A stretch of DNA of 64,000 nt from Sinorhizobium fredii (GTDB taxonomy: Bacteria > Pseudomonadota > Alphaproteobacteria > Rhizobiales > Rhizobiaceae): contig NZ_CP024310.1 of the NCBI RefSeq assembly GCF_002944405.1, positions 1,488,001 through 1,552,000 of the forward strand. The letters run 5' to 3'. This document shows, one piece after another, positions 8,602-50,153 of the stretch; the stretch's first letter is position 1; each line of letters begins with the position of its first letter. Position numbers and translations under genes: made by a program. Below the pieces are notes generated by a model. The model did no database searches and was not told the origin of the DNA. It saw nothing but the letters and a program-made list of their open reading frames with translations.

Positions 8602-8644
8602 GGCGGTTTGCCCCTCATGAAAATCAGTGGCCTCGTTCCCTCAA

Positions 8645-8658
8645 CTGGTATAATGAGT
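8645..8658. promoter_or_regulatory. putative FadR-type operator upstream of oiaX
   Basis: On the minus strand this reads ACTCATTATACCAG. The same sequence with one change, ACTCATCATACCAG, is at 17665-17678 ahead of apnO. Both end about 40 bp before the start codon (43 and 39 nt), so they probably mark a shared promoter/operator used by the adjacent FCD regulator. Confidence 0.55.
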
Positions 8659-8767
8659 ATCTGAGCTGCGCAAGCGAAATCGCGTGAGCCGGCCGGTGAG
8701 GGCGAGATTTCCTCGCCACGGAAAACGTGCATATAGAGGGACGAGCGAGAATAGCGGTGGAGTTCAC

Positions 8768-9481: not shown

Positions 9482-9533
9482 ATTACGCTTGGGAGCGCTC
9501 TACCCCCTGTGGCCTGCCGCAGTGGCAAACCGA

Positions 9534-32058: not shown

Positions 32059-32850
32059 ATGATCAAACGACTTCTGGTGACGGGCGCCGGCGGCCGCCTC
32101 GGGCATCTTCTGCGCGAGCCGCTGAAAGGATCGGCGGAGATCCTGCGCCTCTCCGACATCGTTGACATCTCTCCTTCCCGTCCGGGCGAGGAAGTGGTGC
32201 GATGCGACCTCGCCGATCGTGCGGCGGTCGATACACTGGCGCGCGACTGCGACATGATCCTGCATCTCGGAGCGATCTCGGGCGAAGCGAGCTTCGACGC
32301 GCTGATTCAGGCGAATTTCCTCGGCACCTACAATCTCTACGAGGCGGCTCGCAAGGCCGGCGTCCGGCGCATCCTCTTCGCGAGCACCAACCATGTGATC
32401 GGCTTCCACCCGGTCGGCGAAGGGCTCGACGACAGGTCGGAGCGACGGCCGGACAGCCTCTACGGCGTCAGCAAGTGTTTCGGCGAGGACCTTTCGCGGC
32501 TCTATTACGACAAGTTCGGCCTCGAAACGGCCTGCCTCCGGATCGGCAGTTGCTTCGAAGCACCGAAGGACCGCCGCACGCTCTCCACCTGGCTCAGCCC
32601 GCGCGATTTCCTTTCGCTCGTCCGAAAGCTCATCGGGGCCCCCGTGATCGGCCATCTGGTGCTCTACGGCGTCTCGGCAAACCGCGACGCCTGGTGGTCG
32701 AACGCCCATGCCGATTTCCTCGGCTGGGAGCCGCAGGACACGAGCGAGCCCTATCGCGAGAAGATCGAGCGGCGCGAAGGCCAGCCCGCCGGTGGCAGCC
32801 ACTACCAGGGCGGCCGGCTCGCGACCAAGGGGATAGTCGGTAAGCGGTGA
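32059..32850 (+). CDS. udh: NAD-dependent uronate dehydrogenase
   Basis: This 263-residue short extended SDR has the Rossmann motif LLVTGAGGRLGHLLREPL, the CDLADR cofactor contact, FASTNHVIGFHPVGE, the catalytic YGVSK (about residue 135) and GSCFEAPKDRRTLSTWLSP, all matching the Agrobacterium uronate dehydrogenase pattern closely (265 residues). It oxidises galacturonate or glucuronate to the aldarolactone. It is the second gene of the dehydratase operon, and the SMP-30 lactonase nearby would supply the next step. Confidence 0.85.
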   Translation: MIKRLLVTGAGGRLGHLLREPLKGSAEILRLSDIVDISPSRPGEEVVRCDLADRAAVDTLARDCDMILHLGAISGEASFDALIQANFLGTYNLYEAARKAGVRRILFASTNHVIGFHPVGEGLDDRSERRPDSLYGVSKCFGEDLSRLYYDKFGLETACLRIGSCFEAPKDRRTLSTWLSPRDFLSLVRKLIGAPVIGHLVLYGVSANRDAWWSNAHADFLGWEPQDTSEPYREKIERREGQPAGGSHYQGGRLATKGIVGKR

Positions 32851-32901
32851 AACACGTTTGACACTGGGGCCTAAGTACCGGTTTGGTCGTCGTCGACAGA
32901 G

Positions 32902-33282
32902 TCAGTACACCAGCGTGGCCAAGATCAATCCCGCATAGGTAAGTTGGTGCATCAATTGATCCGCACCATGCATAGCCCAGTAGGCGCGGGTCGAAGCGTC
33001 AGCGCTACTGCGCAGTGACAAGAACGCCTTCGCGTAATCGATGAGGTAATGAACGATGAATTCGGCAAGGACGAGAACGACAACCCGTCCCAAGTCGGCG
33101 CCGACCAGAAGCAGCGCCGGAACGGTTCCGAGCGCATGGGTCCCCGCATGGACATAGCCGCCGATCATCCGCAAATCGCCTTTGCCACGCAGAACCCAGT
33201 CCGGCTGCAGCACGTAATCAGCAACGAAATGCTTGAGCTGTAAGCAAGCAATCATCATCGCCGTGATAAGTGCCATTTCCAT
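32902..33282 (-). CDS. DUF3307 integral membrane protein
   Basis: This 126-residue protein has three to four membrane helices and the family motifs LKHFVADYVLQPDWV near the N-terminus and HYLIDYAKAFLS (about residue 81). GGGAGGAGACA sits directly before the ATG at 33282; an ATG two codons later also exists. Its first 65 bp overlap the end of the cyclase gene, so it is the last gene of the bufferin-type operon. DUF3307 has no established activity, but members are often found with nucleotide cyclase genes. Confidence 0.8.
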   Translation of the reverse strand: MEMALITAMMIACLQLKHFVADYVLQPDWVLRGKGDLRMIGGYVHAGTHALGTVPALLLVGADLGRVVVLVLAEFIVHYLIDYAKAFLSLRSSADASTRAYWAMHGADQLMHQLTYAGLILATLVY

Positions 33283-35140
33283 TGTCTCCTCCCTGAAACG
33301 CGACATCCGGCGGGTCTATCGTGTACACGGCCACTGGTTCGGCCTTGCCGCGGACCGTAGCTAGGCCGAGAGACGTCGTGTGCGCAAATGCATCGGACGC
33401 CTGCACCGTCGCATCGCTGAGGACGATCTCGACGCCATGCTCCTTGGCAACGCCCACGAGCCTGCTCGCCAGATTGACCGTGTCGCCGATGGCGGTGTAG
33501 CTCAGCCGCTCAGCCGAGCCGATATTGCCGATCAGCGCCGTCCCGCTGTTGATGCCGATGCGCACGCGGACCTCGCCATGCCCGACCGAGACGGGCGGCT
33601 CTGTGTGCATCGCATCCCGGATTGCCGTTGCGGCGCGGCAGGCCCGAGCGGCGTGATCCGCCTGCCTTCCGGGTGCATTCCAGATGGCCATAACGGCATC
33701 GCCGATGAACTTGTCGACCGTACCGCCCTCCGCATGGATGGCGGCGACCGCGGTCGTCAGGAAGCGCGTCAGGTGCGGCTCGACGGCCGGTCCGAGCCTC
33801 TCGGTCAGTTCCGTGAACCCGGGCAGGTCGGCGAACATCACCGTAATGTCGCAAAGCTCACCGCCCGGCTTCGGCTCGATGCTACCTTCGACGAGCGGCC
33901 GCACGACGTCGAGCGGCATGTAGCGAGCAAAGGCCGAAAGCCCGATCGACATACGCTTCAAGGCGTCGGAGAAGTCGTTGAGCTCGGCCAGAAAGGTCGG
34001 GTGATGCCGGACGCTCTCAAACGAGAAGTGCTCGACCGCACGCAGCTGTACCGCCAGCCGCGCGAGCGGCCGAGCAAAGAGCAAATTGGCGAAGACGACG
34101 GCCGTGGTTGCCGCGAGACCCGCAATTGCCAACACTGCAATCGGAATGCGCCGGATATTCTCGTCGATGCCGCTTGCGAAGGTCGACCGAGGCGTGGCGG
34201 TGATGAGCCGCCATCGCTCAAACGGAAGGCGCGACGACGACACAAAGACGGGTCCGAGTGCGGCGCTTTGCGTGACGGCACGAAACGCAGCTCCTCCGTT
34301 GAGAGCCACCGCCTCTGCCGCGGCCGCCGCGACGGCATCAGACTCCGGGAAATCGGAAAAGTGCGCCGCCATCACACCGTCGGAAGGCTGCGAGTTGGCC
34401 AGTACGCGGCCATGCTCATCGAGAACGAAGGCCTTGCTGCCGACTGGCATGTTGACCGCCTTGAGCGCTTGCGACAGGCGTCTGAGACTAACCGCCACCA
34501 TCACCACGCCGGCAAACTTCCCGAACATGTCGACGCGCGTCGAGAGAACGATGGATGGCTCGAACCCGTTCGGCAGAACATTGGTGACCGTCCAGACAGG
34601 GTCACCTCCGTCCCTTCCCAGACGATACCAGGGCGCGCCGAGCGCCACATAGGCGCTTTCCGCCTTGATGCGCTGCTCGAAAAAGATGTCTCCGGGGATC
34701 GGCCGATAGCGGTCACGCCTGAGTTGACGCAATTCTCCCGGCTCGGCGACGCCGATTTCGACCATTTCGATCCGCCCGTCGGCAGTCGCATGCGAACCGA
34801 AGAAGCGCCCATCCGGAAAGCCGAAGCCGATCCAGGTGATCGCCGACTGTTCGCGTAACAGGGAAAGGAACAGGAACTCGCGTTTCACCTCGTCGCCGGC
34901 GCTGATGGCACCCTGGAAAAGGATGGATCGGACGATCTCAGCCGTGCTCGAAACGAGGGCGAGCGTCGAGGTGAGATCATTGCGGACGGACCCGGCCGTC
35001 TGCGTATCGAGACTGGCTACGACCTCGTCGATGTTCTCGCTGGCGGCACGCTGCCAGATAAGATGGATGAGCGCGGCAGTCGACAGGACCGCGAGCAAGA
35101 GCAGAAGCACGACGACTTGGGCGAGCTTCGGGCGATACAT
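33218..35140 (-). CDS. adenylate/guanylate cyclase with extracytoplasmic Cache-like sensor
   Basis: This 640-residue protein has a first membrane helix (VVVLLLLLAVLSTAALIHLIW), a periplasmic sensor of about 300 residues with Cache-like strands (LSTRVDMFGKFAGVVMVAVSL, KAFVLDEHGRVLANSQPSDG), a second helix (IPIAVLAIAGLAATTAVVFA), a HAMP-like linker and a class III catalytic domain. The metal-binding Asp pair is in VMFADLPGF and FIGDAVMAIWNAP, with RIGINSGTALIGNIG later. It should make cAMP in response to a periplasmic ligand or state. The gene starts 2 bp after the stop of the NDH-2-like gene, in the same run as the bufferin genes. Confidence 0.88.
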   Translation of the reverse strand: MYRPKLAQVVVLLLLLAVLSTAALIHLIWQRAASENIDEVVASLDTQTAGSVRNDLTSTLALVSSTAEIVRSILFQGAISAGDEVKREFLFLSLLREQSAITWIGFGFPDGRFFGSHATADGRIEMVEIGVAEPGELRQLRRDRYRPIPGDIFFEQRIKAESAYVALGAPWYRLGRDGGDPVWTVTNVLPNGFEPSIVLSTRVDMFGKFAGVVMVAVSLRRLSQALKAVNMPVGSKAFVLDEHGRVLANSQPSDGVMAAHFSDFPESDAVAAAAAEAVALNGGAAFRAVTQSAALGPVFVSSSRLPFERWRLITATPRSTFASGIDENIRRIPIAVLAIAGLAATTAVVFANLLFARPLARLAVQLRAVEHFSFESVRHHPTFLAELNDFSDALKRMSIGLSAFARYMPLDVVRPLVEGSIEPKPGGELCDITVMFADLPGFTELTERLGPAVEPHLTRFLTTAVAAIHAEGGTVDKFIGDAVMAIWNAPGRQADHAARACRAATAIRDAMHTEPPVSVGHGEVRVRIGINSGTALIGNIGSAERLSYTAIGDTVNLASRLVGVAKEHGVEIVLSDATVQASDAFAHTTSLGLATVRGKAEPVAVYTIDPPDVAFQGGDNGNGTYHGDDDCLLTAQAFRC

Positions 35141-35142
35141 CG

Positions 35143-36459
35143 CTAGCCCTCGTTTCTGCCGGTGATCAAACGGGCGGCCCGATCGTTGCGGACATAAGCA
35201 TGGGCCCAGTCGAGAAAGACCACGAGGCGATTACGGAAGCCGACGAGGAACCAGAGGTGGGCGAAGTTCCAGACGAGCCATGCGGCATAGCCGGAGAGCC
35301 TGGCATTGCCGAAATCCGCAACTGCTGCCTTGCGGCCGATGGTCGCGAGATTGCCGTAGTCACGGTAACGGAATGGCGTCGACTGCCGTCCCGCCACGTC
35401 GTCGAGAATGGCGCGCGCCGCGTAGCGACCCATCTGCTTGGCCGCCGGTGCCACGCCCGGTACAGGGCACCCGTCCACACCAGCGACTGAAGCAGTGTCA
35501 CCGATGACGAATATTTCGCCGTGCCCCGGCGGATTGAGGCGCCCGTCGACCAGGACCCGTCCGGCACGGTCGGCCGGCGCGGCGATCCACTTGGCGGCGC
35601 GAGAAGCCATGACGCCTGCGGCCCAGAGAATGCAGGCGGAGCCGATTTCAGTTCCGTCCGCCAGCCGCACGCCGCTGTCGTCGCAGTCGGCGACGGCATT
35701 GCCGAGCAGGACCTCGACGCCAAGCCTTTCGAGTTGTCTCTGGGCTTTCCTCGAAAGGCAGGGCGGCATCGCTGGCAGTATCCGCTCACCCGCCTCGACG
35801 AGCACGACCCGGGCGGAGGACGAATCGATGCGCCGAAAATCACGAACGATCGTCCTTCGCGAGAGCTCGGCGATGGCGCCGGCCAGTTCGACACCGGTCG
35901 GCCCGCCGCCGACGACAACAAAGGTCAACAGCGTCTGACGCAAGCGGGGGTCATCGGTCACCTCCGCCCGTTCGAAGGCGGAGAGGATGCGCGCCCGGAT
36001 CGCCGTCGCATCCGTGATCGTCTTCAGGCCCGGGGCGTGGTCCGCCCAAGTATGGTTGCCGAAATAAGTGTGGCGGGCGCCGGTCGCGACGATCAGGTAG
36101 TCATAGGGGATGCGCCGGCTACCGGTCACTACGCATCGCGCGCCGGTATCGACCGCCTCGATCTTGTCCATCAGAACCGTGGCATTCGACTGCCGTGAAA
36201 GAATGCGGCGGATGGGCATGGCAATCTGCGCCGGCGAGAGTCCCGCGGTCGCCACCTGATAAAGGAGAGGCTGGAACAGGTGATAGTTTCGCCGGTCGAT
36301 GACGGTGACTTCGACCGGCGCGCGGCGAAGCGTCAACGCTGCATTCAGGCCGCCGAAGCCCGCACCGAGAATGACCACGCGCGGCCGGTGCATTGTCGGC
36401 TCCACGCCGGCCGCGATCTTGCCCGGCGCGGAGCCGCTCTGAACAGGCGTCACCGACAT
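35143..36459 (-). CDS. type II NADH dehydrogenase-like FAD flavoprotein
   Basis: This 438-residue protein has two Rossmann motifs (VVILGAGFGGLNAALTL for FAD, TFVVVGGGPTGVELAGAIAEL for NADH), the quinone-site segment NYHLFQPLLYQVATAGLSPAQIA typical of NDH-2, and EIFVIGDTA. The hydrophobic C-terminal stretch (AAWLVWNFAHLWFLVGF) is the membrane anchor. It passes electrons from NADH to quinone without pumping protons. It follows DoxX by 3 bp, so it is cotranscribed with the bufferin core and may help restore reducing balance under metal stress. Confidence 0.9.
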   Translation of the reverse strand: MSVTPVQSGSAPGKIAAGVEPTMHRPRVVILGAGFGGLNAALTLRRAPVEVTVIDRRNYHLFQPLLYQVATAGLSPAQIAMPIRRILSRQSNATVLMDKIEAVDTGARCVVTGSRRIPYDYLIVATGARHTYFGNHTWADHAPGLKTITDATAIRARILSAFERAEVTDDPRLRQTLLTFVVVGGGPTGVELAGAIAELSRRTIVRDFRRIDSSSARVVLVEAGERILPAMPPCLSRKAQRQLERLGVEVLLGNAVADCDDSGVRLADGTEIGSACILWAAGVMASRAAKWIAAPADRAGRVLVDGRLNPPGHGEIFVIGDTASVAGVDGCPVPGVAPAAKQMGRYAARAILDDVAGRQSTPFRYRDYGNLATIGRKAAVADFGNARLSGYAAWLVWNFAHLWFLVGFRNRLVVFLDWAHAYVRNDRAARLITGRNEG

Positions 36460-36462
36460 CGC

Positions 36463-36936
36463 TCAGCCTCCGGCACGGATGCGTCGGGCGACCAGATGAT
36501 CGACGGAAATGACGCCGGCGCCGCGCGATAGGATGAGCAGGAGCAAGCTCGTCCACATCAGATGCTCGACCCAATGATCCGGGTAGACGAAGATCTGGAT
36601 GGTGGCGACGACGCCGAGCAGCATCAGCGACGCGAGCCGCGCGAGCAGTCCCAGGGCGAGCATCGCCGCGCCACTGAGTTCCGCCGCTGTTGCCATAAGG
36701 GCGGCCAATCCGGGATCGAGCAGCGGCACGCGATATTCGAAGGCGAATAGCTGGAGCGTTATCGGCCAGGATGCAAGCTTCGTCTGAGCGGATTGCCAGA
36801 AAATCTCTGCGATCGCCGCGCGGGATGCGAGTTGCACGATCGATAGCGGCAGGGCGGTCGCCAACGCCACGACAGTGTCGTGAAGCCTGTATATCGTTTT
36901 GGAAATACTGACGGGTGTTGCGCGCATTGTGGTCAT
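36463..36936 (-). CDS. DoxX-family membrane protein
   Basis: This 157-residue protein has four hydrophobic helices and the DoxX features RAAIAEIFWQSAQTKLASW and PDHWVEHLMWTSLLLLILSRGAG. It overlaps the DUF2063 gene by 4 bp (ATGA). A DoxX protein is the usual fourth member of bufferin operons, where it is thought to help at the inner membrane in handling the peptide or electrons. Confidence 0.88.
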   Translation of the reverse strand: MTTMRATPVSISKTIYRLHDTVVALATALPLSIVQLASRAAIAEIFWQSAQTKLASWPITLQLFAFEYRVPLLDPGLAALMATAAELSGAAMLALGLLARLASLMLLGVVATIQIFVYPDHWVEHLMWTSLLLLILSRGAGVISVDHLVARRIRAGG

Positions 36937-37733
36937 GACACTCTCTCCTGTTGGTTGGAAGACCGCTTCATGCGATGGATGCCGATGACGAGTTCGCTGA
37001 CGAAAAGGCCCGTCAGCGCGCGGGCAATATCGAACTCAGGCGAATGGCGGCAGGCGCGAGCGACCGCAGCCTCGATTCCGCTGCCCCGCATCAACATGTG
37101 CCAGAACGCAAACTCCGCGGCGTCGAGGCGCAGGAAGCGAACGGTGTCGGCACGTCTCCACAGCGCAATGCGTTCCGGCTCCCGTTTGAGATGGGCGAGT
37201 TTGTCGGGATTGCCTCCCTGCTGGTGCGCCGCCCATATGCTGAGGGCGGGCCAGCGGCAGAGAACAAGTCGCAGCGAAGGTTGTAGGAAAAGCGCGAAGG
37301 ACCCGCTCGAAAGCCCTTCGTAGAGCTCGATGAGTGTGCTTGGCCGCTCCAACGGAGCGTCGAGCGCTTCGGCGATCTTCCACTCCAAACGCGCCACCTC
37401 GGAAACGAACGGCATATCGGCGGTTCCCTCGAAGCGCGCGAGGAATGGCGCAAATCCTGCGCCGTAACGCGAAAGGCGCGGCTCTTGTGGCGGGCTGTTC
37501 CGGATGAAGCAGCCGGCTAGGTAAGTGAAGTAGCGCTCGTCGAGCAGCCGCACCGTCACGGGAAACACGGCCTTCAACGTCGTCGTGAGCGAGACCAACG
37601 TATTGTTGCGGTAGATATTGAGCCGCCTTGCGGGATCGAAACGACCCCGCTCGAGGAGCGGCAGGATATCGGCGGGACCGGTCGTCAGAACCGCACGCGC
37701 GACGACGCTCTGCAAGGCTTCAATGGAGGACAT
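36933..37733 (-). CDS. bufC: DUF2063 (BufC/HvfC-like) partner of the MNIO enzyme
   Basis: This 266-residue protein begins with the DUF2063 signature (LQSVVARAVLTTGPADILPLLE, RLNIYRNNTLVSLTTTLKAVFPVTVRLLDERYF). Such proteins bind the DUF692 enzyme and recognise the precursor leader in related RiPP systems. The gene overlaps the DUF692 gene by 14 bp. The C-terminal half (FALFLQPSLRLVLCRWP) is less conserved. Confidence 0.87.
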   Translation of the reverse strand: MSSIEALQSVVARAVLTTGPADILPLLERGRFDPARRLNIYRNNTLVSLTTTLKAVFPVTVRLLDERYFTYLAGCFIRNSPPQEPRLSRYGAGFAPFLARFEGTADMPFVSEVARLEWKIAEALDAPLERPSTLIELYEGLSSGSFALFLQPSLRLVLCRWPALSIWAAHQQGGNPDKLAHLKREPERIALWRRADTVRFLRLDAAEFAFWHMLMRGSGIEAAVARACRHSPEFDIARALTGLFVSELVIGIHRMKRSSNQQERVS

Positions 37734-38751
37734 GGCCGTCCCTCCTGCAATGGTCCGTTGGGCACTTGCCGCAAGCGGCTCTAACTGCTGCTATGGCAGC
37801 GAGCGCCGGGAAACGGATGCCACTGGCGTTGTCGCGGCGGGGTAGCGTCATTGTCTCGAAACGGCTGTCCGGCACGGCGACCGGCAGCTCCTCCGGGCGC
37901 CCGCCGAAAGCGATACTGCGGGCGAGCATGTCTGCCCACATGGCTTCGCCCAATAGGACCTCGAGCGGCGGCACATCCGTGTCCCATTCGATCAGTGTCG
38001 GTCGCGGGCCGATCCTGCGGAGAGCGTGGGCATAGAGCGACCAGACGGCCGGCGGCACGCGCGACCCATGGTCGTCGATGAGAATGACGTCGCCGTCGAC
38101 CTCGTTGACGGCGTGGCCGGCAAGGTGAATTTCACCGATCGCTTCGGCAGGCAGGGCGTCGATAAACTCCAATGCATCGAAATCGAGGTTGCTTGCGGAG
38201 ACATGCACGTTGTTGACGTCCAGCAGCAAGCCGCAACCCGTCCGGTTGACGAGCTCGCTCAGGAACTCGGCCTCGGTCATGCTCGATTCTGCAAAGGCCA
38301 GGTAGGCCGAAAGGTTTTCGATGAACACCTGACGCTTGAGCGTGTCCTGCAGCCGGCCGATGTTCCCGGAAACGATGGCGAGCGCCTCGTCATCGTAACG
38401 GAGCGGCAGGAGGTCGTTGAGGTAGGCGCCGTCGGCGACGCTCCAAGCAAGGTGCTCCGAGACGATCGCCGGCTGGAAGCGCTCACAGACGAGACGCAGC
38501 CGCTCCAGATGAGCTCGGTCGAGACCCGAGGCGCTGCCGAGCGACAGTCCGACGCCGTGCACCGAAAGCGGATAAACCTCGCGCAGCTTCTCGAGCGCAT
38601 CCACGGCCGCTGATTGGCCCATGTAGTTTTCGGCATGGACTTCCAGCCAACCCGCAGCAGGCCTGCGGGAAAGCACCTCGGCAATGTGTATCGAACGGAG
38701 GCCGATGCCCGCAGCGCACGGCACCGGGTGGGTTGGAAACGTCTTGGGCAT
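37720..38751 (-). CDS. bufB: DUF692 multinuclear non-heme iron oxidative enzyme (MNIO; BufB/HvfB-like)
   Basis: This 343-residue TIM-barrel enzyme keeps all the metal-ligand motifs of the MNIO family in order: WLEVHAENYMG, SVHGVGLSLG, SEHLAWS, FIENLSAYL, LLLDVNNVHVSA, EIHLAGHAV, DDHGSRV and LIEWDTDVPP. In bufferin systems this enzyme turns precursor cysteines into thio-oxazoles that bind copper. The precursor gene lies 36 bp upstream and the DUF2063 partner overlaps its end. It starts at the ATG giving the motif GIGLRSIHIAEVL at residue 15. Confidence 0.92.
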   Translation of the reverse strand: MPKTFPTHPVPCAAGIGLRSIHIAEVLSRRPAAGWLEVHAENYMGQSAAVDALEKLREVYPLSVHGVGLSLGSASGLDRAHLERLRLVCERFQPAIVSEHLAWSVADGAYLNDLLPLRYDDEALAIVSGNIGRLQDTLKRQVFIENLSAYLAFAESSMTEAEFLSELVNRTGCGLLLDVNNVHVSASNLDFDALEFIDALPAEAIGEIHLAGHAVNEVDGDVILIDDHGSRVPPAVWSLYAHALRRIGPRPTLIEWDTDVPPLEVLLGEAMWADMLARSIAFGGRPEELPVAVPDSRFETMTLPRRDNASGIRFPALAAIAAVRAACGKCPTDHCRRDGHVLH

Positions 38752-38787
38752 CGGTCTACTCCCTTTTTGCTTGTTTTCCGGAGGCCG

Positions 38788-39057
38788 TCAGGCCTTGGGG
38801 GCGTTGCTGCCGCCGGCGATCTTTCCGCAGGTGCCGGCAGGCACGTAGATCCAGGCATCCGCCTGGTCGTCCATCGTCGAGGTGCCCGCGCAGGAATGCG
38901 TGGCTGTCTGGCAGTCGTTCTGCCCGGCCTTGACGATCCCGTAGCATTTCTCGAACGAGAACTCCGGCTGGGCGGCCGGTCCTGCCGATGCGGTCGACGC
39001 CGAGACGGAGGCGATCGCGGCAAGCGCGGAACTGATGAGCGTACGAGTGTTGATCAT
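38788..39057 (-). CDS. bufA: DUF2282 bufferin-type RiPP precursor
   Basis: This 89-residue peptide has a Sec signal-like leader ([22 protein letters not shown]) and a core with exactly four cysteines: [21 protein letters not shown], with the last in PAGTCGKI. That spacing and the [11 protein letters not shown] ending are the DUF2282 pattern of type 1 bufferins. The peptide is modified in the cytoplasm on cysteines, then exported to bind copper in the periplasm. I set the start at the ATG at 39057, giving the leader; the frame stays open for 73 codons upstream but these have no family residues. Confidence 0.9.
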
Positions 39058-39090
39058 TGAACATCTCCTGGATTTGACGTTGTTCAAACC

Positions 39091-39109
39091 GGGTATCGGC
39101 CTGATACCG
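39091..39109. promoter_or_regulatory. inverted repeat upstream of the bufferin operon
   Basis: GGTATC-GGCCT-GATACC (39092-39108, extended by one pair on each side) lies 34 bp upstream of the precursor start. It is the only clear dyad in this 276-bp gap on the operon side and could be a regulator site. No match to a named operator is claimed. Confidence 0.4.
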
Positions 39110-39205
39110 ACAAGCTTCGCAGACCGCTCGAGCTCTTTGAAATGCTGTTCAGGCATGGTTTCGATAGGCCGAAAATATCCGCCGGTGACGGGCGCACCTG
39201 AGACG

Positions 39206-39230
39206 AAAAAAGCCCCCCGGATCGGGCCTA
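39206..39230 (-). terminator. probable Rho-independent terminator of the patatin operon
   Basis: Read on the minus strand, a GC-rich hairpin (GGCCCGATCCGGGGGGC) is followed directly by six T. It lies about 105 bp after the patatin stop and before the bufferin promoter, so it insulates the two minus-strand operons. Confidence 0.6.
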
Positions 39231-39333
39231 TCGGGCCGTATCGGGAGGCAGGACTGCCGCGGGAGGGAGATGGCAAGGGAGGTGCGCTCGACCGGTGGCG
39301 ACGCGCCTGATTGGTCGGGAAGCGTCGAACCGC

Positions 39334-40416
39334 CTAGAGGTAACGCGTACTGATATCGACGCTCGAACGCTTCCCTATCGCGTCATAGTTCGCCATCAGC
39401 CAGTCCTCCGCGCATTGTCGACCGCGGTCACGGAGGTCCACGAGGGCTCCCCACTCGGCATTCAGCTTGCTTGAGACGCTGAGGTTTCTCATTGTCTCGT
39501 CGTCGGAGATGCCGTGCACGAATATCCGTTTGAGCCCGAGGGAATTACCCGTCTCGGAATCGATCAGTTGCGTCACGAAAGCGATTGCTCGCATCTCCCT
39601 GAGCAGCGACGAATTGAAGCTGATTTCGTTGATCCTGTTCAGGATTTCAGCCGCAGTCCGCGGCAGTTCCGTTCGCTCGAGGGGATTGATGTGCACCACC
39701 AGCACATCCGGAGTATCGCAGCCGTAGATCAAAGGGAAAATTGCCGGGTTCCCCATGTAGCCGCCATCCCAATAGCCCTCGCCATCGATCTCGACGGCCT
39801 GGAAGAGGAACGGCAGACAGGCGGATGCCATCACCGCATCGATCGAGATCTCGTCATTGGAAAAAACCTTCACCTTGCCGGAGCGCACGTTGGTGGCGCA
39901 AATGTTCAGCTTCACGGGACAACGGGACATGCGGATCGCATCGAGATCGATCGACTGTTCCAGAACCTGGCGCAGCGGATTGTAGTTCAATGGGTTGAAC
40001 TGGTAGGGCGATAGCAGCCGCGTCACCATGTCGAACACGACGAAGGCGGGCGAATACTCCAAGGATTTCGCCCCGGTCAGGCGGTCGAGCAAACTCGGCT
40101 GCAGAGGACTGAAGGCTGCCGCATGGCTGATGCGACGCCAGAAATTGGCGAGAGCCCTTTGCGCGCCGCTGCGTCCACCCTCCGCAAGCCCATAGGCCAG
40201 GACGGCGGCGTTCATCGCGCCGGCACTGGTCGCAACGATGCCTTCGAAGGAAAGGTTCGCCTCGTCGAGCAGCCGGTCGAGCACGCCCCAGGTGAATGCG
40301 CCATGCGCACCGCCGCCCTGAAGCGCCAAGTTTATCGTTCGTGGTGGACGGACGTCCACGGACGCCCTTTCATGGTCGTGAGACGCCGGCAACTTCACGT
40401 TGGCGTGCTTGTTCAT
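39334..40416 (-). CDS. patatin-like phospholipase/esterase
   Basis: This 360-residue protein has the patatin oxyanion motif LALQGGGAHGAFTWGVLD (about residue 30), the nucleophile strand GIVATSAGAMNAAV and the catalytic Asp in YWDGGYMGNPAIF. The nucleophile elbow reads ATSAG where GTSAG is standard, a first-Gly change seen in part of the family. AAGGAGGAGAGCC precedes the ATG at 40416. It follows the 3-hydroxybutyrate dehydrogenase gene by 28 bp; such pairs occur in polyhydroxybutyrate metabolism, suggesting an oligomer or depolymerase-like esterase role. Confidence 0.87.
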   Translation of the reverse strand: MNKHANVKLPASHDHERASVDVRPPRTINLALQGGGAHGAFTWGVLDRLLDEANLSFEGIVATSAGAMNAAVLAYGLAEGGRSGAQRALANFWRRISHAAAFSPLQPSLLDRLTGAKSLEYSPAFVVFDMVTRLLSPYQFNPLNYNPLRQVLEQSIDLDAIRMSRCPVKLNICATNVRSGKVKVFSNDEISIDAVMASACLPFLFQAVEIDGEGYWDGGYMGNPAIFPLIYGCDTPDVLVVHINPLERTELPRTAAEILNRINEISFNSSLLREMRAIAFVTQLIDSETGNSLGLKRIFVHGISDDETMRNLSVSSKLNAEWGALVDLRDRGRQCAEDWLMANYDAIGKRSSVDISTRYL

Positions 40417-40444
40417 GGCTCTCCTCCTTTTTTGCCACGGGCAA

Positions 40445-41275
40445 TCAATGCGCTGTCCATCCGCCATCGACGGGGATCGCCGCCCCGGTTATGGAGGCTG
40501 CGGCACTGGTGCACAGAAAGACGCTCAGCGCCCCCATCTCCTCGACGGTCGCGAAGCGCTTGGTCGGCTGGTTCTTCAGGAACACATCGCGGATGACGGC
40601 ATCGCGCGCGATGCCGTGGGACTTTGCCTGGTCGTCAATCTGCTGTTCAACGAGCGGCGTCCACACATAGCCAGGGCAGATCGCATTCGCCGTTATGCCG
40701 AACTCGGCGCCCTCCAGAGCCAAGACCTTCGTCAGACCGACGAGGCCGTGCTTGGCCGCCACGTAAGCCGATTTGAACGGAGATGCGACGAGCCCATGAG
40801 CCGAGGCGACGTTGATGATGCGTCCATACCCGCGGGACTGCATTTGGCCATAGGTCGCCTGAACGAGATGGAACGCGGCGGAGAGGTTGACCGCCATGAT
40901 CGCGTCCCACTTGGCGGCCGGAAATTCGGCAATCGGTGCGACATGCTGGATGCCGGCATTGTTGACGACGATGTCGACCTGGCCGAAGCGCGCGACGGCG
41001 CGCGCCACCATCATCCGGATCGCCTCGGGGCTCGACATGTCCGCGCTGTCGAACGCGACGTCGACGTCGTTTTCGTCCGCCATCGCAGCTCGTTGTCCCT
41101 CGATCTCGGCCGGGTTGCCGAAACCGTTGAGCATCACCGCGGCACCCGCCCTTGCCATTGCCTGTGCGATGCCGAGACCGATACCACTTGTTGAACCGGT
41201 CACGATGGCACTGCGGCCCTCGAGCGTCCTGCGCCCGAACATTGAATCGATCTCTGCGTCAGTTGCCTTGAGCAT
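40445..41275 (-). CDS. SDR, 3-hydroxybutyrate dehydrogenase family
   Basis: This 276-residue SDR has the cofactor motif VTGSTSGIGLGIAQAMA, NNAGIQHVAPIAEFP, the catalytic Ser/Tyr/Lys set (NVASAHGLVASPFKSAYVAAKHG) and NAICPGYVWTPLVEQQI, which binds the hydroxyacid. The GIQHVAPIE-type and PLVEQQI segments mark bacterial 3-hydroxybutyrate dehydrogenases. About 18 N-terminal residues exceed the usual 258. GAGGAGA before the ATG at 41275 supports this start. It leads the operon with the patatin gene, divergent from a LysR regulator. Confidence 0.88.
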   Translation of the reverse strand: MLKATDAEIDSMFGRRTLEGRSAIVTGSTSGIGLGIAQAMARAGAAVMLNGFGNPAEIEGQRAAMADENDVDVAFDSADMSSPEAIRMMVARAVARFGQVDIVVNNAGIQHVAPIAEFPAAKWDAIMAVNLSAAFHLVQATYGQMQSRGYGRIINVASAHGLVASPFKSAYVAAKHGLVGLTKVLALEGAEFGITANAICPGYVWTPLVEQQIDDQAKSHGIARDAVIRDVFLKNQPTKRFATVEEMGALSVFLCTSAAASITGAAIPVDGGWTAH

Positions 41276-41445
41276 GTAACGTCTCCTCACGTCTCGGCCG
41301 AAGAGCCTTTTCGAGTAGAGGATGCCGCCATATTCATTCCAACTGAAATGCTACTGTGCTATGAAATCGATAGGTGAATTGCATTGGTACAGGCGCCACG
41401 CGCGTAGGAAGTTGGCCGCCTCGACAAAACCTTGCGGGGGCGGGC

Positions 41446-42381
41446 ATGGATATTCACCACGTGCGGTATTTCCTAGCAGTCTGCGAGACGCGGAACTTCA
41501 CGCGGGCGGCAGAAAAGTCCAACGTGACCCAGCCAGCACTCAGCCGGGCAATTCAACAGCTCGAAGACGAGGTCGGTGGGCTCTTGTTTCGGCGGGAACG
41601 GAACCTGACCCACCTTACGGATCTCGGAAACCTACTTCGACCACGATTCCAATCAATTCTCGACGAACTATCCGGCGTTAGGCAGGAGGCGTCGCGCTTC
41701 CTGTGCCTTGAGGATGCGCATGTGAAGGTCGGCATCATGTGCACAATCGGGCCGCGTCGGTTCACCGGTCTCCTGACCGACTTCAACATGCGCCACCGAG
41801 GCATCCAGCTTCAGCTCGTCGAAGGCGTGCCGTCCAGGCTTTCAGAGCTGCTTGAAGAGGGAGAGATCGATGTCGCTGTCATGGCGAGCAGCGACCGCTT
41901 TCCCGAACGCTTCGACGTGACGCCGCTGTTTCGTGAAAGATTCATGCTTGCCTTTCCCGCCGGTCACCGTCTCTGCCAATACGAGGCCGTTCCCATCACC
42001 GCGATAGATGGTGAAATTTACCTAAGGCGCGTGAACTGCGAATATTGGGATTATTTGACGGACCTATGCGAGTCCTCTGGCGTGAAGACGCGCATCTCCT
42101 ATTCGAGCGAGCGGGAGGACTGGATTCAGAACATGGTGGCCGGTGGCCTCGGAATCTGCTTCATTCCCGAGTACAGTGCCGTCATTCCTGGCCTCCAGGT
42201 CCGCCCCGTAACCGAGCCGGAGGTTAGTCGGGAGGTCTGCCTCGTTACCGTCGCGGGTCGTCGGTTCTCGCCGGCCGTTGCCACCTTCGTCGCAGCCGTC
42301 AAATCTTACGGCTGGGCCACACCGCATTCCGGCATAGACATGCGCCGGTCGGCCGCCGATACCTCACCTCTTGCGCAATAG
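41446..42381 (+). CDS. LysR-family transcriptional regulator
   Basis: This 311-residue protein has the N-terminal LysR helix-turn-helix (FLAVCETRNFTRAAEKSNVTQPALSRAIQQLEDEVGGLLFRRER) and a two-lobe effector domain (VGIMCTIGPRRFTGLL, IDVAVMASSDRFPERFDV, GGLGICFIPEYSAVIPGL). It starts 170 bp from the divergent dehydrogenase gene and is followed by the cupin gene in the same direction, so either may be its target. Confidence 0.9.
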   Translation: MDIHHVRYFLAVCETRNFTRAAEKSNVTQPALSRAIQQLEDEVGGLLFRRERNLTHLTDLGNLLRPRFQSILDELSGVRQEASRFLCLEDAHVKVGIMCTIGPRRFTGLLTDFNMRHRGIQLQLVEGVPSRLSELLEEGEIDVAVMASSDRFPERFDVTPLFRERFMLAFPAGHRLCQYEAVPITAIDGEIYLRRVNCEYWDYLTDLCESSGVKTRISYSSEREDWIQNMVAGGLGICFIPEYSAVIPGLQVRPVTEPEVSREVCLVTVAGRRFSPAVATFVAAVKSYGWATPHSGIDMRRSAADTSPLAQ

Positions 42382-42492
42382 CTCTGAGCTATGGAATTCA
42401 AAAGCAGGCGGCATTTCTTTGTCGCCTGAATGTCCCGCAATCTCCTCATGCCGGCGGAATGTCTCCGGCCGGACCATAAAGGAGAAACGGAC

Positions 42493-42987
42493 ATGACCCA
42501 GAAATCCATTGCAGGTCGCCCCTCGTTGGTCGTCGCCGTGGCGCTCGGCCTCTTTGCAAGCGCACTCGCGTCGCCGTCGGCCATGGCGGGCGAATGCCCT
42601 AAGGATCAAGTAGCGGCGGATGCGATGGCGCCGGGCGCGACTACGCCGGAAGGTGTTACCGACGAAGTCCTCGCCTCCATCGATCTTTCGTCGAAGGGCG
42701 GCGACTGGAAAGGCAATGCGCTCAGGCTGCGAAAACTGGTTGTGCAGCCGGGTGGCGTCGTTCCGTGGCATGCGCATGATGCGCGCCCTGCCAATATCCT
42801 GATCCTTGAAGGCACCATCACCGAATACCGCAGCAGCTGCAAGGTGCCGATCGAGCACAAGGCGGGCGAGGTTACCGCAGAGTTCGGCGATCTTGCCCAT
42901 TGGTGGAAGAACAACGGCAAAGAGCCGGCCGTGCTCTACTCCGCCGATATCCTGCCGCCGATGGCAGACAACGCCGACACCATGTGA
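42493..42987 (+). CDS. secreted cupin-domain protein
   Basis: This 164-residue protein has a signal peptide (SLVVAVALGLFASALASPSAMA) and one cupin barrel with metal-ligand motif PGGVVPWHAHDARPANILILEGTITEY and a second motif around AEFGDLAHWWKNNGKEP. Its function is not known; a small-molecule sensor or isomerase is possible. AAAGGAGAAACGG precedes the ATG. It is 80 bp upstream of the MFS gene. Confidence 0.85.
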   Translation: MTQKSIAGRPSLVVAVALGLFASALASPSAMAGECPKDQVAADAMAPGATTPEGVTDEVLASIDLSSKGGDWKGNALRLRKLVVQPGGVVPWHAHDARPANILILEGTITEYRSSCKVPIEHKAGEVTAEFGDLAHWWKNNGKEPAVLYSADILPPMADNADTM

Positions 42988-43067: not shown

Positions 43068-44339
43068 ATGACGAATCTCGATCGCGCCGCGCTTGCGCCC
43101 GTCTCCATTCGGACGACCCCGGCGGCAGAACGCTTGCACTTCGGCATCATTTCACTCATCGCATTTCTGACGCTCGTCGATCTTTTCGCTGCCCAGGCGA
43201 TTTTGCCGTCGCTACAGAGACAGTTCGCGGTCAGCCGTGCCACGATGGGCCTCGCGGCCAACGCCAGCACCTTGGGCATGGCGGTCGCTGGCCTGGCGGT
43301 CGGCATATTCGGACGCTCGCTCGACCGGCGCAACGGGATTTCGATCAGCCTGACCTTGCTTGCCGTGCCGACGGCGCTGCTCGCTGTTACCCAAGACATA
43401 ATGCTTTTCGCCGGCCTCCGCGTGGCGCAGGGCCTGTGCATGGCCACAGCATTCACACTCAGCATGGCTTATCTCGCGGAACACTATCCGGCCGACCGAG
43501 CAACGGGTGCGCTCGCCGCCTATATCACCGGCAACGTCGCAAGCAATCTCTTCGGCCGCACCCTGTCGGCTTGGGTGGCTGATACCGGCGGTCTGTCGAT
43601 CAACTTCCTGACCTTCGCCGTCCTCAATCTGGCGGGTGCGGCGTTGGTCTGGACCACATTGAAGCGCACGGAACACATAATGCCGAACCGACAGATGCGC
43701 AGCATCAACGGGAGCTGGCGCTGCGTGCTTGGCAACCGGGGGCTGCAGAGCATGCTTGCTGTCGGCTTTCTGATCCTCTTCGTGTTCATTGGGACCTACA
43801 CCTACGTGAATTTCCGGCTCGTTGAGCTGGGTCTCTCGTCCATGCAGCTCGGGCTCGTCTATTTCGTCTTCCTGCCGTCACTGTTTACGACGCCACTGGG
43901 CGGGGTGATTTCGCGCCGCCTTGGAGCCGCACCGGCGATCACGCTCACCCTCTTTGTCGCGATCCTCGGTCTCATCGCCTTGTTGAGCAGCGGCCTTGCC
44001 GTGGTGCTCTCCGGTCTCGCGCTAATCGCCGTCGGCACTTTTCTCGCCCAGGCTCTGGTCACAGGCCAGGTGGGCCACATCGCCGACATCGAAAAGGCGG
44101 CCGCGAGCGGAGCCTATCTCGCCTCCTACTATACGGGAGGCCTGTTCGGCAGCCTGGTTGTCGGCCAGATCTACGATCATCTTGGATGGAGCTTTTGCGT
44201 GCTGGCGTTGGTGTTGACACTCGTGATCGCCATCCTGATGACGCTTCCTCTGCGAACCGAGCCACAAACCATAAAATCCGATTATCGAAACGGACACGAG
44301 ACGGCATTACCAAAATCCAGCGGCCGCACGCATCCTTGA
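43068..44339 (+). CDS. MFS transporter (YnfM-like)
   Basis: This 423-residue transporter has twelve predicted helices. The MFS motif A-like loop is GIFGRSLDRRNGISISL (about residue 80), and helix five carries SMAYLAEHYPADRATGALAAYI. It resembles the YnfM/arabinose efflux group. The exported compound is unknown. CCAGGAGAAAAGGCG precedes the start. The gene is followed after 31 bp by the DUF302 gene. Confidence 0.87.
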   Translation: MTNLDRAALAPVSIRTTPAAERLHFGIISLIAFLTLVDLFAAQAILPSLQRQFAVSRATMGLAANASTLGMAVAGLAVGIFGRSLDRRNGISISLTLLAVPTALLAVTQDIMLFAGLRVAQGLCMATAFTLSMAYLAEHYPADRATGALAAYITGNVASNLFGRTLSAWVADTGGLSINFLTFAVLNLAGAALVWTTLKRTEHIMPNRQMRSINGSWRCVLGNRGLQSMLAVGFLILFVFIGTYTYVNFRLVELGLSSMQLGLVYFVFLPSLFTTPLGGVISRRLGAAPAITLTLFVAILGLIALLSSGLAVVLSGLALIAVGTFLAQALVTGQVGHIADIEKAAASGAYLASYYTGGLFGSLVVGQIYDHLGWSFCVLALVLTLVIAILMTLPLRTEPQTIKSDYRNGHETALPKSSGRTHP

Positions 44340-45064: not shown

Positions 45065-46711
45065 CCTGGCTGTGTAAAAACGCTGATGCCATGGCCAATT
45101 GTGGGATATGAGCGTTGCTCAAGCGTCATGGTAGGCGGTTTTTGCCTTCGAGCGCCCTCCAGATGCCGAATTGGCCTCTATGCCGGCGTTTGACGGGAGC
45201 GTTTCATCCAATCGTGATGGGCGTGGCTATTACCCCTGTATTGCCGCCACCAGTGCCTTGGAGCCGATGATGTTCATGACCCGGGTCCATGTTATAGGCG
45301 AGTACGTGCAGCGCCATTTCCGCGCGCTCGTTCGGCAGCCGCTTGGTGAGGAAGTGCGTGGCTCCCATCCATGATTTGATCGTCCCGAAGGGGTGCTCGG
45401 CGGTCACGCGGCGTTGCCGCATCTTATCAGGATCAGCATCAAGCCTTGCCTGCATCGCCTCAAGGTGATGCTCCTGCTCCCAACGCTGAATGCGCCGATA
45501 CTTGCTGGTCGTGCACTTGGACCGCATGGCGCAGCTTGGACAATTGCTCGACCAGTAGCGCCGGATCATCAGGTCCGCCTCTTCTCGCGTGTACCGATAG
45601 ATCAACCGTTCGCCGGCCGGGCAGAGATAGACATCCTCGTCCTTGAGATACCGGAAGTCCTGCTTGACGAAGAGCCCCTTGATCCGATTGGCCGACGTCA
45701 TGGGCTTGGGCATGGTCACCGTGATCTTCTGCTCGACGCAGGCGAGGACCTCTTCGCTGTTAAAGTAACCGCGGTCAGCCACGACCTCGAGATGGTCTGC
45801 CTCAAAGGCTTGCTTGCTGGCCTTGGCCATGTTGGCAAGTTGCGCCCGGTTGCCGACATTGGTCACCTCATGGGCAACGATAAGGTGATGTTCGGTGTCG
45901 ACTGCGGTCTGAGTGTTGTAGCCGACCATGCCCGAGCCTCGGCCGCTGGTCGCCATTGACCGGCTATCGGGATCGGTGAACGATACCTGCTGGTCGGGCG
46001 TTTCCAGCATCTCCTTTTCGATCTCCTTGAGCCGAACCACCTCCTGTCGAAGCCTTCAACCTTCTCCTGCAGGCGCTCGATCTTGGCGGAATGAATGTCG
46101 TCGCGCTCCTGCCGGTCGGCGCCGTCCATCTGGTGGAGATAGCGGGCAACGCTCTCTTCGATCTGCGCCATGCTTGCCCTTGGTGAAGTTCCGGTCTCGG
46201 TTGTTGACCGCCTTGAACTTGCTGCCGTCGATCGCAACACTCGGCTTGGCGAGAAGCCCTATCTCGCGGCACAGCCGCACAAAGCCGGTACAGACCTTCT
46301 TGATGGCACCACCGTTATCGCGTCGAAAATCGGCGATGGTCTTATGGTCAGGCACAAGACGCCCAACCAGCCACATCACCTCAATGTTGCGTCCAGCTTC
46401 GCGTTCGAGACGTCGGCTCGACTGGATTCGGTTCAGATAGCCGTAGATGTAGAGCTTGAGCAGGATCGAGGGATGATAACCGGGGCGCCCGGTATTGCTT
46501 GGCTCACAGCGTACAAAACCGAGATCGGCCAGATTGAGCTCATCAACGAAGACGTCCACCACCCGAACCGGGCTATCCTCATGCACCCAGTCATCCAACT
46601 GCTCGGGAAGCAGTGTACTCTGGCTCCTGTCGACACCCTCGATATACCGCTTCATGAATCCCCTCGACTCATGTCAAAGGCTATCAGGTTCGGCGTTTTC
46701 ACACAGCCTGG
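45065..46711 (-). mobile_element. IS1182-family insertion sequence, about 1.65 kb
   Basis: Imperfect terminal inverted repeats GGCTGTGTRAAAACGCYGAW (45068-45087 and 46689-46708, extendable by CCW) enclose one transposase gene read on the minus strand. The element length fits the family. No clear target-site duplication is visible in the four to six bases outside the repeats. Confidence 0.8.
45204..46655 (-). pseudogene. IS1182-family transposase, double frameshift
   Basis: The N-terminal part (KRYIEGVDRSQSTLLPEQLDDWV, KLYIYGYLNRIQSSRRLEREAGRN, DGSKFKAVNNRDRNFTKGK) runs to about 46172. There an extra base shifts the reading to the frame with MAQIEESVARYLHQMDGADRQ. A missing base near 46052 returns it to the first frame (VVRLKEIEKEMLETPDQQ, GYNTQTAVDTEHHLIVAHEV, then VVADRGYFNSEE and the C-terminal zinc-like CPSCAMRSKC). 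About 120 bp are thus out of frame and a stop near 46056 ends the first frame, so no full transposase is made unless the indels are sequencing errors. Confidence 0.82.
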
Positions 46712-49900: not shown

Positions 49901-50153
49901 CGGCGAGGCAGAGGGACTACTTGCGAGAGGAGCGGCCGTGCTTAACCAGCTGGAGTTCAGGAGGTCTGCCATCGAGGCCTGCATCAAGGGCGGCGATTGG
50001 GACGCGGCGGAGCACCATGCCAAAGTGCTTGAGGATTATACCCGTGCAGAACCCCTTGCCTGGGCAGAGCGAGTGATCGCACGAGCGCGTGAGAGCGTCG
50101 CGGACCATCGCTTCCGAGCCATGTCCACACCTGGCAAAGGGGAGCAGTCCTAA
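46932..50153 (+). CDS. SAM-domain class III cyclase / AAA ATPase / TPR protein
   Basis: This 1073-residue multidomain protein has, in order, a SAM domain (VVSWLRSLGLEQYVGSFHDN, about 1-62), a class III adenylate/guanylate cyclase domain with both metal Asp (VLFADIAGFTALSRELD and HIGDCVMGVFG, about 78-250), an AAA_16 ATPase with Walker A GEAGIGKTRLVEEF and Walker B ILIIVEDVHWADE, and TPR repeats to the end. This is the layout of large STAND-type cyclases that gate cAMP production by ATP and partner binding. The start is GTG at 46932 after AAAGGACAGGCAG. It is intact among pseudogenes, next to an IS element. Confidence 0.9.
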   Translation: MDVVSWLRSLGLEQYVGSFHDNAIDGDVLRDLTDQDLRNLGVSALGHRKKLLDAIRRLKASGDDGWPAPAVHSPASERRQVTVLFADIAGFTALSRELDAEELHKVVGGFFERVDPIVVAHGGYLNKHIGDCVMGVFGAPISYGNDAVRAVHAALEIRDAVSELADVHGRRLQIHAGVAGGQVVASTTGSVSHHEYTVTGESVNLASRLAAAAPPGDILISDAVMRMTRGKIDCVDGGWLNVKGFAEPVRAWQVVRCRTEASTDAGPLVGRQAELQIFGAAVASCRASGRGQVFYVRGEAGIGKTRLVEEFQRVARDGGFDCHAALVLDFGGGAGRDAIGALVRSLLNISLTDGPAASQAGLDSALAAGLVNQDELVFLDDLLDLPQPPDLRVLVDAMDNEARRAGRIRVPASLVQRASRARPILIIVEDVHWADETTLAQLSEIALATARSRSILAMTSRVEGDPSGSGWREEVAEASLVTLDLGPLQLEDARALASGLLAASSSFVERCVARAAGNPLFLEQLLAETQQSLGAQEVPGSVQSLMQARVDRVDPADRTALQAASILGLRVELGALRYLIGKPHYQPNQLIEHRLLRYHGEAIMFSHALIRDAVYETLLRNRRRGLHLAAAEWFAASDDPVLRAEHLDRAEDTRAAAAYLSAVQLLVGSYRYENALRLSDRGLEIAALPVVRYELAQSRAEILEQLGRVRDAVAAYDLALTAAIDDRARCSVLIGRAGARRTIDDMDGAFADLEQAENTASQLGFTAELARIHFLRGNLYFPSGNAEACSHEHEQALELAKRAGSVELEAMALGGLADAQFIRVRMVSAYELFERCVSLAQEHGFARIAAANRPMAAMAQFYSGSAAAALEIALLAIAETAKIGHKRGEILAQNAAALCYRELQQHGKALDHTQAALKLAISVGARRFEALSLYIHASLLRLSGDSDGALDHVKHALAIARETGIGFAGPRVLGELALITDDPEVRASSLGEAEGLLARGAAVLNQLEFRRSAIEACIKGGDWDAAEHHAKVLEDYTRAEPLAWAERVIARARESVADHRFRAMSTPGKGEQS

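Follow-up and report, generated by a model that had tools for sequence, protein, structure and literature searches.

A bufferin gene run of Sinorhizobium fredii shares a putative LysR operator with a 3-hydroxybutyrate dehydrogenase gene

Why should genes for an NDH-2-like flavoprotein, a sensor cyclase and a DUF3307 membrane protein follow a bufferin operon? The question is raised by positions 32902..39057 of a 64,000-nucleotide stretch of Sinorhizobium fredii DNA (contig NZ_CP024310.1, positions 1,488,001 to 1,552,000), hereafter called the window. Here, a bufferin precursor (BufA), its MNIO maturase (BufB), a DUF2063 partner and a DoxX protein are followed by the three additional proteins. 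The original prediction, made from the sequence alone, placed these seven open reading frames (ORFs) on the minus strand, which was confirmed, coordinates included, and read them as one unit that may link copper buffering to quinone reduction and cyclic AMP (cAMP) signalling. The unit is real, but it forms only the 3' part of a larger conserved block with patatin, bdhA, LysR, cupin and MFS genes. The copper-centred reading holds as far as the extension is conserved; however, the locus is more than an operon for copper buffering to which further genes were added, because a shared sequence box ties bufA to bdhA, the gene for 3-hydroxybutyrate dehydrogenase. This box, which appears to join bufferin synthesis with 3-hydroxybutyrate oxidation, is the stronger finding.

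Upstream of bufA, on the same strand, lie a gene for a patatin-like hydrolase (39334-40416; PF01734, 92 bits), which adjoins bdhA in relatives, and bdhA itself (40445-41275; TIGR01963, 355 bits, cut-off 307). The hydrolase is of the PatD type (the Legionella patD gene encodes a patatin) and possibly acts on polyhydroxybutyrate (PHB) or 3-hydroxybutyrate oligomers. Divergent from bdhA, a LysR-type regulator (PF00126, PF03466) is encoded on the plus strand (41374-42381); its likely start is the ATG at 41446, since the best family models begin at ORF residue 25. The order LysR / bdhA-patatin-BufA-MNIO-DUF2063-DoxX-NDH2-cyclase-DUF3307, nine co-directional genes plus the divergent LysR gene, is fixed in 10/10 close loci of the Rhizobiaceae, the window included; NDH-2, cyclase and DUF3307 thus extend the bufferin genes in every one. 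The nine further loci share 46-98% protein identity with the window, and the conserved order is far beyond chance. The loci were selected by similarity of the cyclase, the NDH-2 or the whole block and therefore show conservation of order, not frequency. Five of them (L004, the window's own, with L005, L007, L009 and L011) come from 38 fetched of 89 MNIO places, the other five from plasmid matches (L104-L107 on Rhizobium plasmids, L108 in S. meliloti GR4). At the DNA level, a Sinorhizobium sp. CCBAU 05631 plasmid matches window positions 32700-41300 with 99.4% identity, and at least 80% of the block is covered in seven plasmid records. Among 151 Rhizobiaceae genomes, an MNIO match occurs in 78 (89 places) and this kind of cyclase in six (8 places, E <= 1e-60). 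An MNIO gene lies within 10 kb of the cyclase in 6/8 of these places, so the suspicion that the last three genes rarely accompany DUF692/DUF2282 was not borne out.

The box comprises 29 bp, TATCGA-N3-CAT-N9-GCATTTCA, and is found ahead of both bufA and bdhA. It emerged as invariant islands in an alignment of the bufA-upstream regions of the ten loci, and identical islands with identical spacing precede bdhA. Expressed as a 34-bp weight-matrix site, it lies at 39137..39170 (minus strand, 79 bp to the bufA ATG) and at 41343..41376 (minus strand, 67 bp to the bdhA ATG). LysR-type regulators recognise sites with a T-N11-A arrangement. The box contains this arrangement, and a LysR gene adjoins the bdhA box in 10/10 close loci, which makes both sites putative LysR operators. 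Taken by itself, the palindrome ATGC-N7-GCAT is no usable motif, its 2 matches in the window being no more than chance would give (1.69 expected). In the 6.56-Mb genome of the strain, the exact box has two copies only, those at bufA and bdhA; allowing up to three mismatches gives 23 matches, compared with 6 for the reversed pattern. All ten close loci carry the box ahead of both genes. A slightly degenerate exact pattern yields 26 matches in 18 of the 151 Rhizobiaceae genomes, the reversed control having none among the matches listed, and ten of the 26 are the bdhA and bufA sites of five module genomes.

A third, weaker box (42386..42419, plus strand, 24.6 bits) stands 73 bp ahead of the ATG of a cupin gene (42493-42987, plus strand; PF07883, 33 bits), whose product has, by eye, a signal-peptide-like N-terminus. 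An MFS transporter gene follows (43068-44339, plus strand; PF07690, 132 bits). Sites of 17.0-25.8 bits are present just past LysR in 9/9 other close loci, and in L104, L105 and L107 a cupin is annotated there. A natural variant is seen in contig C633 of genome G086 (L199, L209), where LysR directly faces BufA-MNIO with two boxes in between and no bdhA-patatin; these two boxes account for two of the 26 pattern matches.

The matrix, built from 20 Rhizobiaceae sites, was run on loci outside its training set. In 21 distant module loci it found 21 sites of at least 10 bits, 17 of which are no more than 300 bp ahead of a module gene and share its strand, although only 5.2% of positions qualify as such. 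In comparison, 200 column-permuted matrices gave a mean of 0.32 sites and a maximum of 3. The sites precede bdhA (L058, L065, L068, L071, L109), BufA (L058, L064, L068, L081, L083, L109), DoxX (L074, L082, L102, L109), NDH-2 (L109) and LysR (L058), and a BufA site is present in 6/6 distant loci with a clear MNIO. Two of the four remaining sites precede cupin-MFS pairs (L058, L068); that at L065:8518 lies about 100 bp ahead of the longest ORF holding NDH-2, and that at L068:6445 is unexplained. With the threshold at 14 bits, 19 module loci (278 kb) hold 16 sites. Matched controls hold very few: none in 33 other Rhizobiaceae loci (504 kb; L014 plus 32 that contain genes for MNIO or bufferin), one in 25 loci that have NDH-2 but lack the module (421 kb) and two in 16 cyclase loci lacking bdhA (323 kb). 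When the threshold is lowered to 10 bits, the four counts become 21, 2, 1 and 2. A strict form of the box has three matches in 367 genomes, each in a module locus and upstream of either bdhA or DoxX-DoxX-NDH2; as this pattern was composed after seeing those loci, it measures specificity and is not a discovery.

The module also has its own bufferin lineage, as indicated by a supported group (98/85) in a 57-row MNIO tree, which unites the MNIOs of the ten close and five distant module loci and excludes the ordinary bufferin MNIOs sampled. The precursors agree: NDCQTA with C-x6-C between the central cysteines is found in 14/17 module precursors (the exceptions being two in L081 and one in L109), whereas those of other loci show C-x7-C in 33/35 and NDCQTA in 0/35. 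The window BufA carries the NDCQTA..SC signature. The C-x6-C spacing alone does not mark the module, as it also occurs in two second precursors (L026, L027), while L081 has C-x8-C and L109 has C-x7-C. Tandem BufA precursors beside one MNIO were noticed in three of these loci, with x6 and x7 spacing in L026 and L027 and two x8 in L081. A cyclase tree of 40 rows groups the cyclases of the full block with that of Ensifer L124 in a single clade (100/100), and a branch (92/98) sets off all 11 rows near an MNIO, together with three rows of no group.

How widely the genes travel together was seen in a survey of 385 alphaproteobacterial genomes. An MNIO is present in 149, a close NDH-2 relative in 45 (49 places, E <= 1e-110) and the cyclase in 10 (E <= 1e-70). 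In the 44 of 49 NDH-2 places examined, the same stretch holds a DoxX match in 15, patatin or bdhA in 8 (a 126-bit SDR in L074 excluded) and a clear MNIO in 6 (L004, L058, L064, L068, L081, L083); L070 has one weak MNIO match of 31% identity. Order and strand of the module vary among distant families. L058 contains LysR, cyclase, bdhA, patatin, BufA, DoxX, NDH-2, MNIO and DUF2063. L083 reads BufA-MNIO-DUF2063-DoxX-AhpC/TSA-DoxX-NDH2-LysR, L065 and L071 hold NDH-2, bdhA-patatin and an AhpC/TSA peroxiredoxin, and L057 has DoxX-DoxX-NDH2-bdhA-patatin, LysR and cyclase with no MNIO in the stretch. NDH-2, DoxX, cyclase and LysR thus also accompany bdhA-patatin where the stretch holds no bufferin genes. 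The AhpC/TSA genes adjoin NDH-2 or DoxX in L065, L071 and L083, a hint of an oxidative-stress side to the regulon.

A scan of named genomes with the cyclase alignment found at least 80 loci, the first 19 of which (L109-L127) were set apart at the point where identity falls. Among the matches listed, an MNIO lies within 10 kb of the cyclase in 11 of these 19, compared with none of the other 61, although 20 of the 61 span less than 12 kb and several stretches among the 19 are short or end close to the cyclase, including the negatives L122, L123 and L124. The rows are not independent of one another, Bradyrhizobium supplying most of the 11. In four Bradyrhizobium loci (L110, L111, L112, L126), the cyclase is divergent from BufA-MNIO-DUF2063-DoxX. 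Another Bradyrhizobium group (L114, L115, L116, L125, L127) has the cyclase about 2-7 kb from a different MNIO type with no recognised BufA, possibly another peptide system.

The seven genes themselves, all on the minus strand, have the predicted domains above Pfam cut-offs, dCache_1 apart. BufA (38788..39057) is a DUF2282 protein (PF10048, 89 bits) whose N-terminus, judged by eye, resembles a signal peptide; its four cysteines are invariant in 16/16 aligned rows. After a gap of 36 bp follow BufB (37720..38751; PF05114, 334 bits; NCBIfam NF050167, 363 bits, cut-off 310), the DUF2063 partner of the BufC type (36933..37733; PF09836, 67 bits) and the DoxX family membrane protein (36463..36936; PF07681, 44 bits). 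The window BufA falls below the cut-off of the NCBIfam BufA2 model, which describes another subfamily, and the DUF2063 partner and DoxX score below the cut-offs of the HvfC and HvfX models. All sequence features tested place the bufferin core in Buf1, a class further defined by a thiooxazole on the central cysteine, copper binding and protection from copper.

The gene for the NDH-2-like flavoprotein (35143..36459) begins 3 bp after DoxX, which leaves no room for a terminator that could have separated the two. Its product has the two-dinucleotide fold and the C-terminal domain of NDH-2, both over cut-off (PF07992, Pyr_redox_2, 164 bits; PF22366, NDH2_C, 39.8 bits), and its closest solved relative is an NADH:ubiquinone reductase (9mqy, E=1e-108). 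The quinone motif of NDH-2 is AQxAxQ. It failed as a separator of module NDH-2s, APAAKQ-type motifs being general among the relatives listed. Two base pairs further on, the cyclase gene (33218..35140) encodes a 640-residue protein with a class III adenylate cyclase domain (70 bits). The catalytic residue set is complete, with D/K/D invariant and T/N/R nearly so in ten rows, one of them truncated. In the Cache-like sensor domain of this protein, dCache_1 scores 39, below the cut-off of 45, but a predicted model of the domain fits dCache structures, which supports a tandem Cache fold. No conserved cysteine or histidine stands out in the sensor alignments. The remaining junctions of the run are overlaps, as predicted, except that the last is better put at 65 bp than at 89. 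The longest ORF of the DUF3307 membrane protein (32902..33282; PF11750, 44.8 bits, over the Pfam cut-off) starts at 33306, but the ATG at 33282, with a Shine-Dalgarno-like sequence ahead, is the better start. DUF3307 has one copy only in its own genome and was seen solely in the Rhizobiaceae version of the module. In L010, positions 8453-10126 (G083:C217) hold a partial second cyclase with one in-frame TGA, followed by DUF3307, with no bufferin genes in the stretch; the partial cyclase looks like a decayed duplicate.

Published clusters account for part of this combination. The Buf1 cluster DUF2282-MNIO-DUF2063-DoxX (Antoine et al. 2025, PMC12452194) has the same four core genes and a four-cysteine precursor; in contrast to it, the gene run of the window continues with NDH-2, cyclase and DUF3307, its bufA shares a box with bdhA, and window-type MNIO and BufA form a subgroup of their own. 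According to the main text of that paper, extra conserved genes accompany Buf1 clusters at extremely low proportions, and sigma/NrsF genes occur in some, whereas no sigma gene is among the window genes tested. The same main text, to which this check extended, supplements lying outside it, contains neither NADH, pyridine nor DUF3307, and a cyclase only in a reference title. The original prediction knew of no description of such a unit, a claim that needs weakening, as the Legionella pneumophila H4 cluster (lpg0671-0676) is described in PMC5413113 with bufferin (GIG) homologues, a DoxX-domain NADH dehydrogenase, an acetoacetate decarboxylase and an adenylate cyclase. Likened by description only, H4 resembles the window block in pairing bufferin genes with a DoxX-NADH dehydrogenase and an adenylate cyclase, and its acetoacetate decarboxylase is again a ketone-body enzyme. 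H4 differs in having genes on both strands, and the passage on it in PMC5413113 names no bdhA-patatin and no shared box. Similar gene company in a gammaproteobacterium supports a real functional link. A Fluoribacter cyclase match (L142) was rejected as an H4-type cluster, the stretch having no significant bufferin, NDH-2 or DoxX match.

A Legionella bdhA-patD operon (Aurass et al. 2009, as cited in PMC4549902), the mutant of which is reported to be defective in PHB breakdown, likewise joins 3-hydroxybutyrate dehydrogenase to patD, with no bufferin link in the PMC4549902 passages on it. In the open literature, subscription papers and supplements being outside the search, no relevant report was found that joins DUF3307 with the cyclase, DUF2282 with 3-hydroxybutyrate dehydrogenase, or bufferins with adenylate cyclase or polyhydroxybutyrate, and DUF2282 with LysR was met only in a different cluster type. 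The gene combination is thus a variant of Buf1, part of which has precedent in Legionella H4.

What, then, is the block for? The seven genes probably form one transcription unit of a LysR regulon that joins 3-hydroxybutyrate oxidation, electron flow through NDH-2 and DoxX, metal or thiol buffering and a dCache cyclase. From gene content, conserved order, the specific shared box and protein family membership, all observed directly, we infer a single transcript, LysR binding to the box, an inducer with co-induction, coupled electron flow and roles for bufferin and cAMP. The LysR protein would bind the putative boxes before bdhA-patatin, the bufA-to-DUF3307 operon and cupin-MFS and switch the three units together. 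Patatin and BdhA would release 3-hydroxybutyrate, from PHB or from outside, and oxidise it to acetoacetate, yielding NADH, whose electrons the NDH-2-like protein may hand to quinone, with DoxX working beside it in the membrane. An over-reduced quinone pool might be the state in which copper and oxidants are most harmful in the periplasm. There, exported BufA, after oxidation of its two central cysteines by MNIO and DUF2063, would bind copper or buffer thiol-reactive metal stress, and the dCache cyclase would read a periplasmic small molecule and make cAMP.

It is more tentatively suggested that a dedicated bufferin subclass, marked by its own MNIO group and NDCQTA..SC, is made together with ketone-body oxidation, NDH-2/DoxX and cAMP and serves respiratory and redox homeostasis during stored-carbon use, not a response to simple copper excess. 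The role of DoxX beside bufferin genes has so far been merely suggested. With the box defined, and with both a candidate regulator and a fuel enzyme named, the signal that switches bufferins becomes directly testable, as does the link of peptide buffering to 3-hydroxybutyrate respiration, and a sensor cyclase of rhizobia gains a candidate pathway.

Several observations weigh against this regulon. Bufferins in general manage without the extra genes: 31 of 33 other fetched Rhizobiaceae MNIO or bufferin places, some on short contigs, lack NDH-2, cyclase, patatin, bdhA and DUF3307. In these 33 stretches, patatin, bdhA and DUF3307 are found in none; the two with extra genes are L012, whose cyclase is divergent from the bufferin genes, and L008, with NDH-2 about 4.5 kb from DoxX. 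Conversely, just 6/21 distant module loci have clear bufferin genes in the stretch, which makes the bufferin an optional member, and L109 has an ordinary-type MNIO, as do the Bradyrhizobium cyclase loci, which suggests that in L109 another bufferin lineage was recruited. The box is also missing from some loci. It precedes bdhA in 5/9 distant bdhA loci (none in L055, L057, L076, L102), and 10/21 distant loci have no site of at least 10 bits (L054, L055, L057, L060, L070, L076, L088, L089, L096, L097). Fourteen of the 26 Rhizobiaceae pattern matches are not beside module genes, although two have a weak SDR or LysR match nearby; these 14 may be chance. As for the enzymes, the window flavoprotein has APAAKQ in place of AQxAxQ (9mqy: AQGAIQ) and is for this reason called NDH-2-like, and another BdhA of the same genome (G000:C1:2739772-2740539) scores 408 bits against 355 for the window copy, which may thus have another substrate.

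A first rival reading is a copper-stress operon, in which NDH-2 and cyclase serve copper buffering or sensing and bdhA-patatin is a mere neighbour. Bufferins do sequester periplasmic copper (PMC12452194), the cyclase is divergent from bufA-MNIO-DUF2063-DoxX without bdhA in the four Bradyrhizobium loci and in L012, and G086 retains LysR and the boxes on bufA with no bdhA beside them. One box type ahead of both bdhA and bufA is, however, hard to reconcile with a mere neighbour, as is the pairing of NDH-2, LysR and cyclase with bdhA-patatin in L055 and L057, where the stretch holds no MNIO (MNIOs being on other contigs). The sensor has a predicted dCache fold and no standout cysteine or histidine, and no copper regulator is among the block genes tested. 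This explanation is considered unlikely.

Somewhat less likely still is a regulon for oxidative or electrophile stress, in which LysR would sense an oxidant or a toxic organic compound, DoxX, NDH-2, bufferin, cupin and MFS (with AhpC/TSA in other taxa) would detoxify, and BdhA and patatin would give reducing power. The AhpC/TSA neighbours in L065, L071 and L083 speak for it, as does Rhizobium TAL182, where peroxiredoxin-like and DUF302 genes lie close to the block. OxyR is among the family-model matches of the LysR protein; the best match is, however, CidR, all are under cut-off, and no peroxiredoxin is among the window genes tested. An accessory plasmid island of unrelated, co-inherited genes would fit the plasmid-borne blocks of Rhizobium and S. 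meliloti GR4 and the rarity of the cyclase in Rhizobiaceae, but it is very improbable, as the same genes and box recur in distant families in different orders and strands, which the descent of one island does not explain.

A few features of the surroundings remain to be mentioned. A scan for generic sigma-70 promoters over 32400-42500 found none. Between patatin and bufA, a terminator-like hairpin with a T-run was detected by sequence scan at 39210..39229 (minus strand), and several further rows of the bufA-upstream alignment show T-runs behind stretches rich in GC. The hairpin 3' of patatin is weak evidence, since such sites are no commoner in the 10-kb stretch than in shuffles (9 against 7.5 expected). 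About 16-17 kb beyond the left edge of the window lies a second bufferin locus of the strain (L003, G000:C4:1471183-1471974), which consists of BufA-MNIO-DUF2063 only, near aquaporin and low-molecular-weight phosphatase-like genes; a box of at least 10 bits, NDH-2, cyclase, patatin and bdhA are absent there. Within the window, positions 46932-50153 (plus strand) encode a large protein that, by eye, resembles a class III cyclase at its N-terminus and continues into a long ATPase- or repeat-like region, and a transposase-like ORF (45204-46040) lies near it.

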